Positions 8,755 to 60,193 of a stretch of 64,000 nt of DNA are shown here, in pieces. Source of the stretch: Lachnospiraceae bacterium (GTDB taxonomy: Bacteria; Bacillota; Clostridia; Lachnospirales; Lachnospiraceae); the NCBI GenBank assembly GCA_017461725.1, contig JAFTXG010000031.1, positions 124,001 to 188,000 on the forward strand, written 5' to 3'. How positions within the stretch are numbered: position 1 is the stretch's first letter; every line of letters begins with the position of its first letter. The translations under genes and the position numbers were made by a program. The notes below the pieces were generated by a model that saw only the letters and a program-made list of their open reading frames with translations, searched no databases and was not told the DNA's origin.

Positions 8755-9819
8755 ATGACCAATATCAATGTGGACAGTTTTCGGGAGAAAATGGATCGGT
8801 TTATTGACACATTTCGAAAAGAATATCCATTGTCCGCGGGGATTAGAATTACCTGGCAGGATAAGATTCTTTACCGGCGTCTGGTTGGATGCGCGGATTA
8901 TGAGAATCAGATTCCGTTGACCGGGGATTCGATGTTTACCTTGTATTCTCTTTCCAAGCCGTTTTGTGCTATCGGATTGATGCGATTGAAAGAAAAAGGT
9001 CTGGTAGATATCGACAGGCATCCCGGAGCTTATGTTCCGCAGGCGAGGGGATTCGACAGCAGGGTGACGATTCGCCAGATGCTGCATCACACAAGCGGTC
9101 TGCCGGACTTTAAACAGACGAAAGGTTTTGAGGAACAGTATCCGTATGTGGCTGGCAGAGATATGAGGGATTATGTGGAAAAACTGGTGGATTTCCCCAT
9201 GTTTTTCGAGCCGGGATGCGGTGCGAGATATGCCAATGTGAACTTTGTGATCTGTGCATTGATCATAGAAAATATATCCGGTTTGAGCTATGCGGATTAT
9301 ATGAAGCAGGAAGTGTTTGACGCTCTGGGGATGAAAACGGCTGTGGTTGGCCGTGACGGCCTCGAAGTCGAAAAGCAGGTAAAGGGCTATGAAGTGCGGG
9401 AAGGTAAAATTCTTTATGTGGGCAAAACCGGGGAATGGATGCTTGGCGCGGGGGATATTATGGGTACGCTGGATGATGTGTACTGCCTGAACAAAGCAAT
9501 CAAAAACAAACTATTGTTGAAACCGGAAACCTGGGATGAGATATTGACACCCTCACCGCTTAATCGGATGGGTATGGGGTGTACGCTTACCCGCTGGCAT
9601 GAGAAACGCCGTATCACCCACAACGGAGGTGCGCTTGGATTTCGGACATATCATGTTCAGCTCCCGAAGGATGACCTGGATATTATTCTACTGGCTAATT
9701 TCGGTTCGGGAGAAGATATACGTCCGAAATTTGCCGAAGGCGTTTACGCAGCGTTTTACGGTGCGGACGATTTGGAGAGCGAAACGGTGGAAATGGATAA
9801 GGGTTACATTGTGAGATAA
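8755..9819 (+). CDS. Beta-lactamase-fold serine hydrolase (class C-like)
   Basis: Serine hydrolase of 354 residues with the beta-lactamase/DD-peptidase fold: SLSK at about S65-K68 (S-x-x-K), YAN at about Y159-N161 (Y-x-N) and HNGG at about 289-292 in place of KTG. The HHTSGLPDF segment is typical of EstB-like and AmpC-like esterases. No signal peptide is visible, which argues against a secreted antibiotic-degrading enzyme. Within a glycan operon an esterase or amidase acting on substituted sugars is more likely. AAAGGAG lies before the ATG. A short piece of this gene recurs in the decayed block near 14.9 kb. Confidence 0.83.
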   Translation: MTNINVDSFREKMDRFIDTFRKEYPLSAGIRITWQDKILYRRLVGCADYENQIPLTGDSMFTLYSLSKPFCAIGLMRLKEKGLVDIDRHPGAYVPQARGFDSRVTIRQMLHHTSGLPDFKQTKGFEEQYPYVAGRDMRDYVEKLVDFPMFFEPGCGARYANVNFVICALIIENISGLSYADYMKQEVFDALGMKTAVVGRDGLEVEKQVKGYEVREGKILYVGKTGEWMLGAGDIMGTLDDVYCLNKAIKNKLLLKPETWDEILTPSPLNRMGMGCTLTRWHEKRRITHNGGALGFRTYHVQLPKDDLDIILLANFGSGEDIRPKFAEGVYAAFYGADDLESETVEMDKGYIVR

Positions 9820-9840
9820 ATGGTTAGGAGGGATATCACG

Positions 9841-10935
9841 ATGAGAAAATATATGCTGCCCGAGACGGGCAGATTTTACAAAGCGAACTTACACAGTCAT
9901 TCCACACTGTCGGACGGAAATCTGACACCGGCTCAGATGAAGGAGGAATATCAGAAGAGGGGGTATTCGATTTTGGCCCTGTCTGACCATGATGTGCTGC
10001 ACTGCAGCTATGAGCTGAGTGATCAGGATTTTTTGATCCTCACGGCCTATGAGATCAGCGTGAGAAGTGACGATGTGGCGATCCCCCACGCCTACCGCAA
10101 GGTGGTGGACCTGAATCTGTTTGCCAAAGAACCCCACAATATGACTCAGGTGGGCTTTCACCCCGATACGGTAGCCCACTGGATCAAGCGTGGAAGAATT
10201 ACCGAGCAGCAGGCGCGTGAGATCAAATATGCCGGAGAGCTGAGGGACACTCATTACTATCCGGCCAATATCAATAAAATTATCCGAAGTGCCAATGAAA
10301 ACGGATTTCTGGTCAGCGTCAACCATCCGGTGTGGAACCTGGTGGATGCCCGGGATTACACTGCCTACGAGGGAGCCTGGGCGGTGGAGGTTTACAACCA
10401 CGGCTGTGCGGTTTTGAGCGGAATGAATGACGCGGAGCATGTGTTTGAGGACATTCTGCGCACCGGGAAGAAGATTTTTGCGGTGGCGACCGATGACAAT
10501 CACAACAGCTTCCCGCTGGACAGCTGGCAGTGCGACTCCTTCGGCGGCTTCACCATGATCAAGGCGGAATCTCTGGACTATTCCACGGTGATCAGTGCCA
10601 TGGAGCGGGGGCATTTTTACGCCTCCACGGGCCCGTTGATCGAGGAATTATATTATGAGGACGGGAAGATTTATCTTCGCTGCAGCGAGGCGGCTGAGGT
10701 CTGCATGAATTCCCTCGGCAGATGGGGAAGACGAGTGGCTGGCAGCGCTGGAGAGCTGATCACCGAGGCGGTGTTTGATCTGGAAAAGGATCTCTTTGAC
10801 CGGCCACAGAATGTGGACTGCTGGGGGTATGTGCGGTTCAGAGTGACGGATAAGGCCGGTAGAAAGGCCTACACCAATGCCTATTATCTGGATGAACTGA
10901 TGGATGGAAGGGCGAAAGTCCGGGCGATTTTGTAG
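9841..10935 (+). CDS. PHP-domain metal-dependent phosphoesterase
   Basis: PHP-domain protein of about 364 residues. N-terminal motifs are LHSHSTLSDG (H18, H20, D25) and ALSDHD, which together bind the metal centre; further His ligands lie in VNHPVW and the Asp/His pairs in ATDDNHN. Family members hydrolyse small phosphate esters such as phosphohistidinol or cyclic phosphodiesters. The ATG at 9841 follows TTAGGAGGGAT; the in-frame ATG at 9820 directly after the previous stop has no good site. It is probably co-transcribed with the beta-lactamase-like gene. The C-terminal third looks like a beta-domain of unknown role. A second, broken copy lies near 15-15.7 kb. Confidence 0.8.
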   Translation: MRKYMLPETGRFYKANLHSHSTLSDGNLTPAQMKEEYQKRGYSILALSDHDVLHCSYELSDQDFLILTAYEISVRSDDVAIPHAYRKVVDLNLFAKEPHNMTQVGFHPDTVAHWIKRGRITEQQAREIKYAGELRDTHYYPANINKIIRSANENGFLVSVNHPVWNLVDARDYTAYEGAWAVEVYNHGCAVLSGMNDAEHVFEDILRTGKKIFAVATDDNHNSFPLDSWQCDSFGGFTMIKAESLDYSTVISAMERGHFYASTGPLIEELYYEDGKIYLRCSEAAEVCMNSLGRWGRRVAGSAGELITEAVFDLEKDLFDRPQNVDCWGYVRFRVTDKAGRKAYTNAYYLDELMDGRAKVRAIL

Positions 10936-11010
10936 GGAGTGCGGATTTCATGCCTGCCTGGAAAGCAGAGAAATCCGTGCATCATGGAAGAAGAAAGGAG
11001 AATTTGGGAA

Positions 11011-11805
11011 ATGGAATTTGGGATAAATATCAGCGGCAAGCTGCCGTACAGTGAGCAGATTGAGGGGATGAAGAAAGCCGGAATTTTCCGGACATTTGTC
11101 GCGGCAAATGGCCATGATTTTGATGAGCTCATGGCAGAGCTGGCAGCAAACGGTATTATTTGCGACAATATGCACGCGCCGTTTGACGGAATCAATGATA
11201 TGTGGCATGAGGGGGAGACCGGGGAGGATATGCTGAACCGACTGAAAATCAGTGTTGACCGGTGTAAGCAGTATGCGGTTCCGGTTCTGGTGGTCCATCT
11301 GTCCGCGGGCTGCCCGATGAAAGCGATCAGTGAGATCGGTATGAGGCGTTTTGCCGGTCTGGTTGAATACGCGAATGCGAACGGCGTTACCATCGCTTTC
11401 GAGAATCAGCGGTATCTGGAGAACCTCAAGTGGAGTCTGGAGGACTGCCCCGGCGCAGGATTCTGCTGGGATTGCGGGCACGAAGCCTGCTTCACACCGG
11501 GGTTAAAGTTTATGCCGTACTTTGCGGATAAGCTTGTGGCACTGCATATCCACGATAATTCCTGTGAGTACAATGTGGATAATCATGTGCTTCCCTTTGA
11601 CGGAAAGATGGATTTCGACTATGTGGCAAAAGAAATCGCAAAAAGCGGATATCAGGGGACGCTGATGCTGGAGACCTCCAAGCTGTCCCAGTATGAAGGA
11701 AAGGGCATCTACGAGGAGATGACCTATGAGGAATTTTATCAGCGGGCGGCAGAGTCCCTGAAGAAACTCAGAGAGCTGATCGAGAAGTATCGCAGTGCAG
11801 GTTGA
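11011..11805 (+). CDS. Sugar phosphate isomerase/epimerase (TIM barrel)
   Basis: Protein of about 264 residues of the xylose-isomerase-like TIM-barrel family. Conserved metal-site elements include the Glu in IAFENQR, the Asp and His in CWDCGHE, the His in ALHIHDN and a C-terminal LMLETSK Glu. The start at 11011 (MEFGINISG) follows AAAGGAG by ten bases; an upstream in-frame ATG at 10984 has no clear site. It directly follows the PHP gene. A fragment resembling its first residues also follows the broken PHP copy, so the two genes seem to have been duplicated together. Substrate unknown. Confidence 0.78.
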   Translation: MEFGINISGKLPYSEQIEGMKKAGIFRTFVAANGHDFDELMAELAANGIICDNMHAPFDGINDMWHEGETGEDMLNRLKISVDRCKQYAVPVLVVHLSAGCPMKAISEIGMRRFAGLVEYANANGVTIAFENQRYLENLKWSLEDCPGAGFCWDCGHEACFTPGLKFMPYFADKLVALHIHDNSCEYNVDNHVLPFDGKMDFDYVAKEIAKSGYQGTLMLETSKLSQYEGKGIYEEMTYEEFYQRAAESLKKLRELIEKYRSAG

Positions 11806-14858: not shown

Positions 14859-14893
14859 AACAGTACGAGGTTTGATATCGTGAGACATCAAAC

Positions 14894-15699
14894 TCCAAGC
14901 CGTTTTGTGCCATCGGATTGATGCGATTGAAAGAAAAAGGTCTGATAGATATCGACAGGCATCCCGGAGCTTAGATTCCGCAGGTGGGGGTATTCGATTT
15001 GGGCCCTGTCTGACCATGATGTGCTGCACTGCAGCTATGAGCTGAGCGATCAGGATTTTCTGATTCTCACGGCCTATGAGATCAGCGTGAGAAGTGATGA
15101 TGTGGCGATCCCCCGGGATTACACTGCGTACGAGGGAGCCTGGGCGGTGGAGGTTTACAACCACGGCTGTGCGGTTTTGAGCGGAATGAATGACGCGGAG
15201 CGTGTGTTTGAGGACATTCTGCGCACCGGAAAGAGGATTTTTGCTGTGGCGACAGACGATAATCACAACAGCTTTCCGCTGGACAGCTGGCAGTGCGATT
15301 CCTTTGGCGGATTTACCATGATCAAAGCGGAGAATCTGGACTATTCCACGGTGATTGATGCCATGGAGCGGGGTCATTTTTACGCCTCCACGGGCCCGTT
15401 GATCGAGGAATTATATTATGAGGACGGGAAGATTTATCTTCGCTGCAGCGAGGCGGCTGAGGTTTGCATGAATTCCCTCGGCAGATGGGGAAGACGAGTG
15501 GCGGGCAGCACCGGAGAGCTGATCACCGAGGCGGTATTTGATCTTGAAAAGGATCTCTTTGACCGGCCACAGGATGTGGGCTGCTGGGGGGTATGTGCGG
15601 TTTCGGGTGACCGATCAGAACGGAAAACATGCCTATACCAACGCCTATTATGTGGATGAATTGATGGGCGGTGGAAAGAAAGTTCGGGCGATTTTGTAG
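14894..15699 (+). pseudogene. Decayed partial copy of the beta-lactamase-like and PHP genes
   Basis: Bases 14894-14990 repeat an internal piece of the beta-lactamase-like gene (8953-9050) with few changes, including TAT to TAG giving a stop. This is joined directly to the PHP gene from its 'tattcgatt' segment (about 9962). Within the PHP part about 260 bases are missing in frame, after DDVAIP and before RDYTAYEG. A run of six G near 15590, against five in the intact copy, shifts the frame just before the C-terminus; restoring it gives the expected ending. The longest surviving open frame is 15021-15659, without a convincing ribosome site. It is best read as a relic of a tandem duplication. 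Confidence 0.87.
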
Positions 15700-15730
15700 A
15701 GAGCGCTGAAAAATGGGTGATAAATTCCAG

Positions 15731-15826
15731 ATGGAAATCGGTGTCGGGCTGAGCAGACAGTTTCCGAAGGTTTATTCCCAGATCGCACTTGCCAGATTGT
15801 TTTACATCGAATATAATAGTGCGTGA
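15731..15826 (+). pseudogene. Remnant of the start of a sugar isomerase gene
   Basis: A 31-residue open frame beginning MEIGVGLSRQFP, similar in pattern to MEFGINISGKLP, the start of the intact isomerase that follows the intact PHP gene. Here it follows the broken PHP copy at a comparable place. It stops soon after and runs into a promoter-like sequence for tatD. No strong ribosome site is seen. It is most simply the right-hand edge of the duplicated block; the similarity is short, so chance cannot be excluded. Confidence 0.4.
15789..15817 (+). promoter_or_regulatory. Predicted sigma-A promoter for tatD
   Basis: TTGCCA at 15789-15794 and TATAAT at 15812-15817 are separated by 17 bases, about 55 bases before the tatD start. 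The promoter lies inside the remnant at the end of the decayed duplication, so tatD is probably transcribed independently of the glycan operon. Confidence 0.6.
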
Positions 15827-15871
15827 CCGAGTGTTGGTCGAACGATGAAAAAAGTCTATCGAGGTACAAAC

Positions 15872-16654
15872 ATGATTTTTGATACACACGCCCATTATGA
15901 TGATGATGCATTTGATACAGACCGGGAGGAACTGCTGTCCTCTCTTTCCGCCGCCGGGATCGGAGCGGTGGTAAATATCGGCGCCAGCCTTTCCACCACC
16001 GCCAACAGTCTGGCACTGAGCGAGAAATATCCCTGGATGTACGCCGCTGTCGGCGTTCACCCCTACGATATCGGAGAGCTGACGGAGGACGGACTGCGCT
16101 GGCTGGAGGAAGTAAGCCGCCGCGACAAGGTGGTGGCCGTCGGTGAGATCGGTCTGGATTATCATTATGAAAATATTGACCGCGACCTGCAGAAGCACTG
16201 GTTTGAGCAGCAGCTTCTGTTGGCGGGACGGGTGGACAAGCCTGTGGTGATCCACACCAGAGACGCGGCGCAGGACACGCTGGACATGATGAAGAGCGAC
16301 GCGGCCAAGGGGCTTGGCGGTATCATCCACTGTTTTCCCTTCGGGGCGGAGCTGGCCAGAGAGTATCTGAATATGGGCTACTATCTGGGCATCGGCGGAG
16401 TGCTGACCTTCAAAAACGGTAAAAAGACCAAGGAGGCCGTGGCTTACGCGCCGTTGGAGCGCATTGTGCTGGAGACGGACTGTCCCTATCTGGCACCCAC
16501 ACCCTTCCGCGGAAAGAGGAACGATTCCACGCTGCTGAAGCTGGTGGTGAAGGAGGTGGCACAGATCAAGGGTGTCACCGAGGAAGAGGTGGAGAGAGTC
16601 ACCTGGGAGAATGCGAGAAGGGTGTATCGGTTAGCTGATGGAATGTTATTTTAA
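15872..16654 (+). CDS. tatD: TatD family metal-dependent deoxyribonuclease
   Basis: Cytoplasmic TIM-barrel metallohydrolase of 260 residues, the normal TatD size. Motifs are FDTHAHYD (metal His pair), VGVHPYD, VGEIGLDYHY (catalytic Glu), VIHTRDA, IHCFPFG and LETDCPYLAP (final Asp). TatD enzymes are Mg-dependent 3'-5' exonucleases involved in DNA repair and RNA turnover. The ATG at 15872 preceded by CGAGGT gives the usual MIFDTHAH start; an in-frame ATG at 15845 would add nine residues. In many Firmicutes tatD sits beside metG or rnmV and rsmA; here rsmA is far away. It is followed by a terminator. Confidence 0.92.
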   Translation: MIFDTHAHYDDDAFDTDREELLSSLSAAGIGAVVNIGASLSTTANSLALSEKYPWMYAAVGVHPYDIGELTEDGLRWLEEVSRRDKVVAVGEIGLDYHYENIDRDLQKHWFEQQLLLAGRVDKPVVIHTRDAAQDTLDMMKSDAAKGLGGIIHCFPFGAELAREYLNMGYYLGIGGVLTFKNGKKTKEAVAYAPLERIVLETDCPYLAPTPFRGKRNDSTLLKLVVKEVAQIKGVTEEEVERVTWENARRVYRLADGMLF

Positions 16655-26597: not shown

Positions 26598-26698
26598 AGT
26601 ACATGGAACATTCGGGGAGAGACGAATGTGCGGGATACCGGTTTTTCCATGTTAGGGCGTGATATTCAGCAGAATATATCATATATAAACGGATGACA

Positions 26699-26815
26699 GG
26701 AACCGGGTGGAAGAAAGCGGACGGAAGAAACCGGACGAAAGGAACCGGGCGGAAGAAAGCGGACGGAGAAAAACGGACGAAAGGAACCGGGCGGCAGAAA
26801 CCGAACGAAAGAGAA
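26699..26815 (+). repeat. Tandem repeat, 42-bp unit, nearly three copies
   Basis: Unit begins GGAACCGGGYGGAAGAAAGC and runs to CGGACGAAA. Copies start at about 26699, 26741 and 26783; the third diverges after about 25 bases. Within each unit there are also shorter ACCGGGCGGAAG-like subrepeats. The tract is in frame with the following transporter gene (14 residues per unit, Lys/Gly/Arg/Thr-rich), so it is either a purine-rich leader or an unusual charged N-terminus. Confidence 0.8.
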
Positions 26816-38507: not shown

Positions 38508-38567
38508 AGTTACTCCTTTAAATCATGGGCGTCCGTGGAAGCTGTATTCACAGGACGGAAACAATAA

Positions 38568-38624
38568 GATGTTGACAGCTCAACTTCTCGCATTATACAG
38601 CGGGGAAGTTGAATTGTCAACATC
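38568..38624 (-). promoter_or_regulatory. Consensus promoter within a 20-bp-arm inverted repeat (MarR operator)
   Basis: Arms at 38568-38587 and 38605-38624 match at 18 of 20 positions when one is reversed and complemented. On the minus strand the right arm supplies TTGACA (38615-38620) and the centre supplies TATAAT (38592-38597), with exactly 17 bases between: a full consensus promoter 85 bases before marR. The left arm also presents TTGACA on the plus strand, 16 bases from TATACA, suggesting a facing promoter. Confidence 0.85.
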
Positions 38625-38630
38625 TTTCTG

Positions 38631-40578: not shown

Positions 40579-40587
40579 AATAAAAGA

Positions 40588-40640
40588 GAGCGTTGTTTCT
40601 GATCCGAAATCGTTATGATTTCGGAACAGAAACAACGCTC
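40588..40640 (+). terminator. Terminator of the HAD gene
   Basis: A 14-bp perfect outer stem GAGCGTTGTTTCTG/CAGAAACAACGCTC with an inner CCGAAATC/GATTTCGG stem, then CTTTTC, ten bases after the stop. Confidence 0.85.
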
Positions 40641-40770
40641 CTTTTCGGATAAATGAAAACAGCATAAGGGAGCGGTGATGAAAAGTCGAGCCGAACGCGT
40701 GGGCGGAAAATGCCAAAGGACTTAAAGTCACGAGATTAACGGATGTTATAATAACGGCATAAAAGAAAAA

Positions 40771-59899: not shown

Positions 59900-59954
59900 A
59901 CAAAAACGCGATGTAAGCACCGCACAGCCAAACCCCACCCCAGGAGCAACTTTA

Positions 59955-60095
59955 ATATGTAAACAGGTCTCCCGGCTTGGCTTCATCCTACTGGGACACC
60001 TTCCCGCCTCAAGGCAGTGGCTTCAACGTCCGTTCGTCAGCTTCACGGTTACTGGGATAGCTCGGAACTCTCATCCGTATTCCCTCGGTATCGGG
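59955..60095 (-). ncRNA. Cobalamin riboswitch
   Basis: Read on the minus strand the region carries GGGAATACGG, then GTGAAGCTGACG, the B12 box GAAGCCACTGCC (complement of 60013-60024), GGGAAGGTGTCCCAGTAGGATGAAGCC and GGGAGACCTG, the standard order of the cobalamin aptamer. Adenosylcobalamin binding should reduce expression of btuFCD. Edges are approximate. Confidence 0.9.
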
Positions 60096-60193
60096 CGATA
60101 CCGGCGCATCGCTGCGCAAATACATACGCTATTCATTTGTAAAAATACTATAGCAAATGGAGGAGAAGTTGTCAACAAAAATACAGGTAGTGA

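Follow-up and report, generated by a model that had tools for sequence, protein, structure and literature searches.

In the window, that is, the whole stretch of 64,000 nucleotides that was analysed, the DNA that separates the YhcH gene from the tatD promoter is the relic of a second BLA-PHP-isomerase block (a beta-lactamase/esterase-like gene, a PHP-type metallohydrolase gene and a sugar-isomerase/epimerase-like gene). The sequence supports its interpretation as an ordinary pseudogene, a decayed second copy of the block in the original gene order. The reading we prefer, with a probability of roughly two in three, is that this second block, either an old copy or an import, was inactivated recently, after gene conversion with the intact one had homogenised it in part.

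The operon around the intact block is catabolic and encodes a dihydrodipicolinate-synthase-like aldolase, TIM-barrel isomerases, GH36, an SGNH esterase, GH28 and YhcH; judging from GH28, GH36 and the esterase, its substrate is likely a plant polysaccharide. The intact PHP scores below the cut-off for PF02811 (E 2.5e-4) as well as for the CehA/McbA domain NF038032 (E 4e-20, 72 bits against a family cut-off of 80), but it shares with the CehA/McbA-like metallohydrolases the NLHSHS, SDHD, VNHP and DDNH motifs, which are common, with small variations, to 13 homologues. The isomerase ORF is listed from a GTG at 10939, the likely true start being the ATG at 11011, given the AGGAGA upstream of it and the alignment with paralogues. 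The BLA-isomerase pair recurs in the same genome (L031:5854-7918), where the closest isomerase paralogue (71%) comes directly after a beta-lactamase-like gene, with no PHP between them. A literature search on the BLA-PHP-isomerase block found no paper.

On BLAST and repeat search, positions 14894-15709 form three blocks collinear with the intact genes at 8755-10935, with E-values from 3e-41 to 0, well outside what chance would give. The first (14894-14997) matches 8953-9056 in BLA at 93% identity, the second (14986-15114) matches 9959-10087 in the early part of PHP at 96%, and the third (15112-15709) matches 10349-10945, the remainder of PHP, at 91% with one gap. The earlier note had described a repeat of 8953-9050 and then a jump to PHP at about 9962, which agrees closely with this alignment. 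In the whole genome no third copy was found, the relic and the intact copy being the sole matches.

The inactivating lesions comprise a nonsense change at BLA codon 93 (TAT to TAG, 14972-14974), deletions of 914 bp (the offset of 5941 minus that of 5027) and 264 bp, a frameshift in the six-G run and the missing starts, and both internal deletion junctions sit at short repeats. A nonsense change, an in-frame loss of about 260 bases and a one-base expansion of the G run had all been claimed beforehand, and each is borne out by the alignment. The blocks and lesions likewise uphold the claim of a decayed BLA-PHP-isomerase copy, with the correction that BLA' also lacks its first 198 bp. Moreover, PHP' has lost two of the four metal-site motifs, HSHS and VNHP, both conserved in the homologues, which sets it apart from the CehA/McbA-like enzymes; given this loss and that of the start, the relic cannot be a normal PHP enzyme.

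Table 1. Features of the intact block, of the relic and of its edges (window coordinates).
Feature	Position	Strand	Remarks
BLA, serine beta-lactamase/esterase-like, intact	8755..9819	+	Pfam PF00144, E 5e-42; parent of the relic's first block
PHP, PHP-type metallohydrolase, intact	9820..10935	+	aligned with 13 homologues
Sugar-isomerase/epimerase-like TIM barrel, intact	10939..11805	+	PF01261, E 3e-19
Inverted repeat GTTTGATATC-gtga-GACATCAAAC	14870..14893	+	ends exactly at the relic's left edge
BLA' remnant	14894..14990	+	93% to 8953-9056; 5' 198 bp missing
Deletion junction 1	14984..15000	+	914 bp lost; imperfect repeat GGGG-ATTCGA; three-way junction view
PHP' remnant	14986..15700	+	about codons 1-46 and codons 90-177 absent; identity to PHP is mosaic
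Deletion junction 2	15112..15116	+	264 bp (88 codons) lost in frame; CCC microhomology
Six-G run	15587..15592	+	five Gs in parent; frameshift leads to TGA at 15657-15659
ISO', isomerase-like start	15731..15788	+	diverged; cut after about 18 codons
tatD promoter (likely), TTGCCA-17-TATAAT	15789..15817	+	11/12 consensus matches; relic's right boundary
tatD	15845..16654	+	PF01026, E 1e-83; TIGR00010; likely true start 15872

An isomerase-like start in the original order had also been proposed, and it is found at 15731, where the peptide MEIGVGLSRQFP aligns with MEFGINISGKLP of the window's isomerase (shuffle p 0.0016) and where the comparison with the isomerase paralogue of contig 12 gives a shuffle p of 0.0004. 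The match of MEIGVGLSRQFPKVYSQI with MEFGINISGKLPYSEQI, the isomerase start at 11011, like that with the contig-12 paralogue, is short but beats almost all other ATG-started peptides at the loci tested; this short sequence is more diverged from its intact gene than PHP' is from PHP. The extent first given for the relic, 14894-15826, stands on its left side but not on its right, where the similarity ends near 15788 because 15789-15817 is a near-consensus promoter before tatD. The inverted repeat at the left edge has no T run and an RNA hairpin stability that is not unusual; it could be a terminator stem whose T run was lost, or a deletion-prone palindrome. Elsewhere, the window holds a cobalamin riboswitch on the minus strand at 59945-60140 (Rfam RF00174, 71 bits), a short direct tandem repeat at 26687-26807 (offset about 41 bp, 87% identity) and two palindromes, each about 62-65 bases long and matching its own reverse complement, at 40582-40645 and 38566-38626.

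Of 710 sites compared, 57 differ between the two PHP copies, and 34 of these differences fall at third codon positions. By the Nei-Gojobori method there are 36 synonymous and 21 nonsynonymous differences over 152 S sites and 546 N sites, corresponding to a dS of 0.28 and a dN of 0.04, and the synonymous share (36/57) exceeds the 22% expected without selection (p 2e-11). Since the differences are mostly synonymous, both copies were still coding during their divergence; most of the divergence thus arose under purifying selection and the decay is recent.

Furthermore, the differences are clustered and the tracts of identity are grouped beyond chance, as in gene-conversion pairs (p about 2e-4), the observed clustering being reached in 0 of 5000 permutations that preserved codon positions. 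In the near-identical stretches 9962-10462 and 10623-10742 dS is about 0.1, while it reaches 0.64 in 10463-10622 and 0.81 in 10823-10935, so that two apparent ages alternate along the gene (dS about 0.1 and about 0.55), with a dN/dS of about 0.07 in the near-identical and 0.14 in the diverged patches. In the segmentation with the best BIC one breakpoint suffices (10838), which is the most clearly supported; the middle patch, 10467-10611, is backed by the permutation test and is unneeded by BIC. Two other tandem PHP pairs, one on contig 25 of the genome and one in a buffalo-colon Clostridia genome, show a rather even divergence, with a DNA identity of about 67%, hence a patchy pattern is not a general trait of the family. 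Tandem PHP pairs recur, as at L020:9013-11095 and L006:5661-7737 (about 63% protein identity, one of the two in the same genome). At positions 218 (R) and 259 (D) it is PHP', not PHP, that carries the residue common among the homologues, which also favours the preferred reading. Taken together, the synonymous bias and the patches of two ages indicate that the copy diverged while functional and probably recombined before its recent collapse.

The concerted evolution of duplicated genes through gene conversion is treated for mammalian pairs in PMC2720389, and PHP and PHP' share with such pairs the near-identical stretches beside diverged ones, but one copy here later became a pseudogene and the comparison involves two sequences only. 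As the pattern is drawn from two sequences, it may also stem from recombination that involved a third version, or from an exceptionally strong constraint on those patches that are conserved.

From these results we infer both the gene conversion and an order of events. An old second block would have arisen by duplication, or entered as a related version of the operon, and would have stayed functional for long, with patches homogenised through gene conversion with the intact copy. A quick and recent breakage would have followed, in which DNA between short repeats (GGGG-ATTCGA; CCC) was deleted by slippage or by illegitimate recombination and to which the slip in the G run and the nonsense mutation would have added, the block being trimmed to YhcH on the left and to the tatD promoter on the right. 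A bolder version, in which the blocks formed a long-lasting functional pair with different substrates, gene conversion recurred in PHP, selection kept the 3' parts separate and the loss was very recent, appears rather doubtful.

Relatives were sampled as 3 genomes of the genus (source included), 397 of the family and 392 of the order, the last two sets partly overlapping. The earlier note had proposed comparing related genomes for an intact second block; neither such a block nor a PHP match above about 44% protein identity was found in the genus, family and order samples or in a scan of genome contigs; duplication and import are thus both compatible with the samples and fit about equally. A mobile origin was considered and rejected: the relic DNA matched nothing in a plasmid search, a single phage record had a PHP protein (37% identical) and the left-edge inverted repeat is present once in the genome. 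Ahead of tatD, many relatives have an ORF of about 490 codons, in what is usually the place of metG; hence the site has been rearranged here and its neighbourhood is uninformative about the ancestral gene order.

It is unlikely that the relic is instead an older resident version of the operon, the intact one having been transferred in later with recombination, or the reverse. This would account for the old patches with purifying selection, for the sites at which PHP' is nearer to the homologues, and for the lack of a close match to the relic in the other two genus members sampled, but the samples and the contig scan contain no donor or resident version, and a recent exchange is still needed for the near-identical patches. 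A simple history in the sense of the earlier note, in which the block, or else the entire BLA-to-YhcH unit, was recently duplicated in tandem and then decayed neutrally and step by step, agrees with the gene order and the high identity but is too simple for the synonymous bias, the two patch ages and an ISO' far more diverged than PHP'. Nor are the copies adjacent or of uniform age: SGNH, GH28 and YhcH lie between them at an offset of 4.7 kb, no remains of a second copy of any of these three genes were found, and we regard that history as quite unlikely. An assembly artefact joining strain variants might be suspected in a genome that is made up of 33 contigs, is 86% complete and was probably assembled from a metagenome, but the joins fall at repeats of 3 to about 7 exact bases, fewer than a word-based misjoin would need, and the relic has unique DNA on either side within a 283-kb contig, which makes it very improbable. 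That PHP' still yields a functional protein of 212 residues with a new role is barely credible, since its persisting open frame (15021-15659) begins at a GTG with no visible ribosome site, lacks two metal-site motifs and has a frameshifted C-terminus.

The relic is real and biologically ordinary in kind. With bacterial pseudogenes derived from redundant copies it shares the truncated start, the nonsense change, the homopolymer frameshift and the deletions at short repeats, but its strongly patchy divergence predates the lesions. Pseudogenes of this sort being common, its general importance is small. It is a clear example of a second catabolic block shortly after its inactivation, in which the lesions, the short-repeat junctions and the earlier recombination are still legible, and the unevenness of its divergence suggests that the copy had long been of use when it broke.
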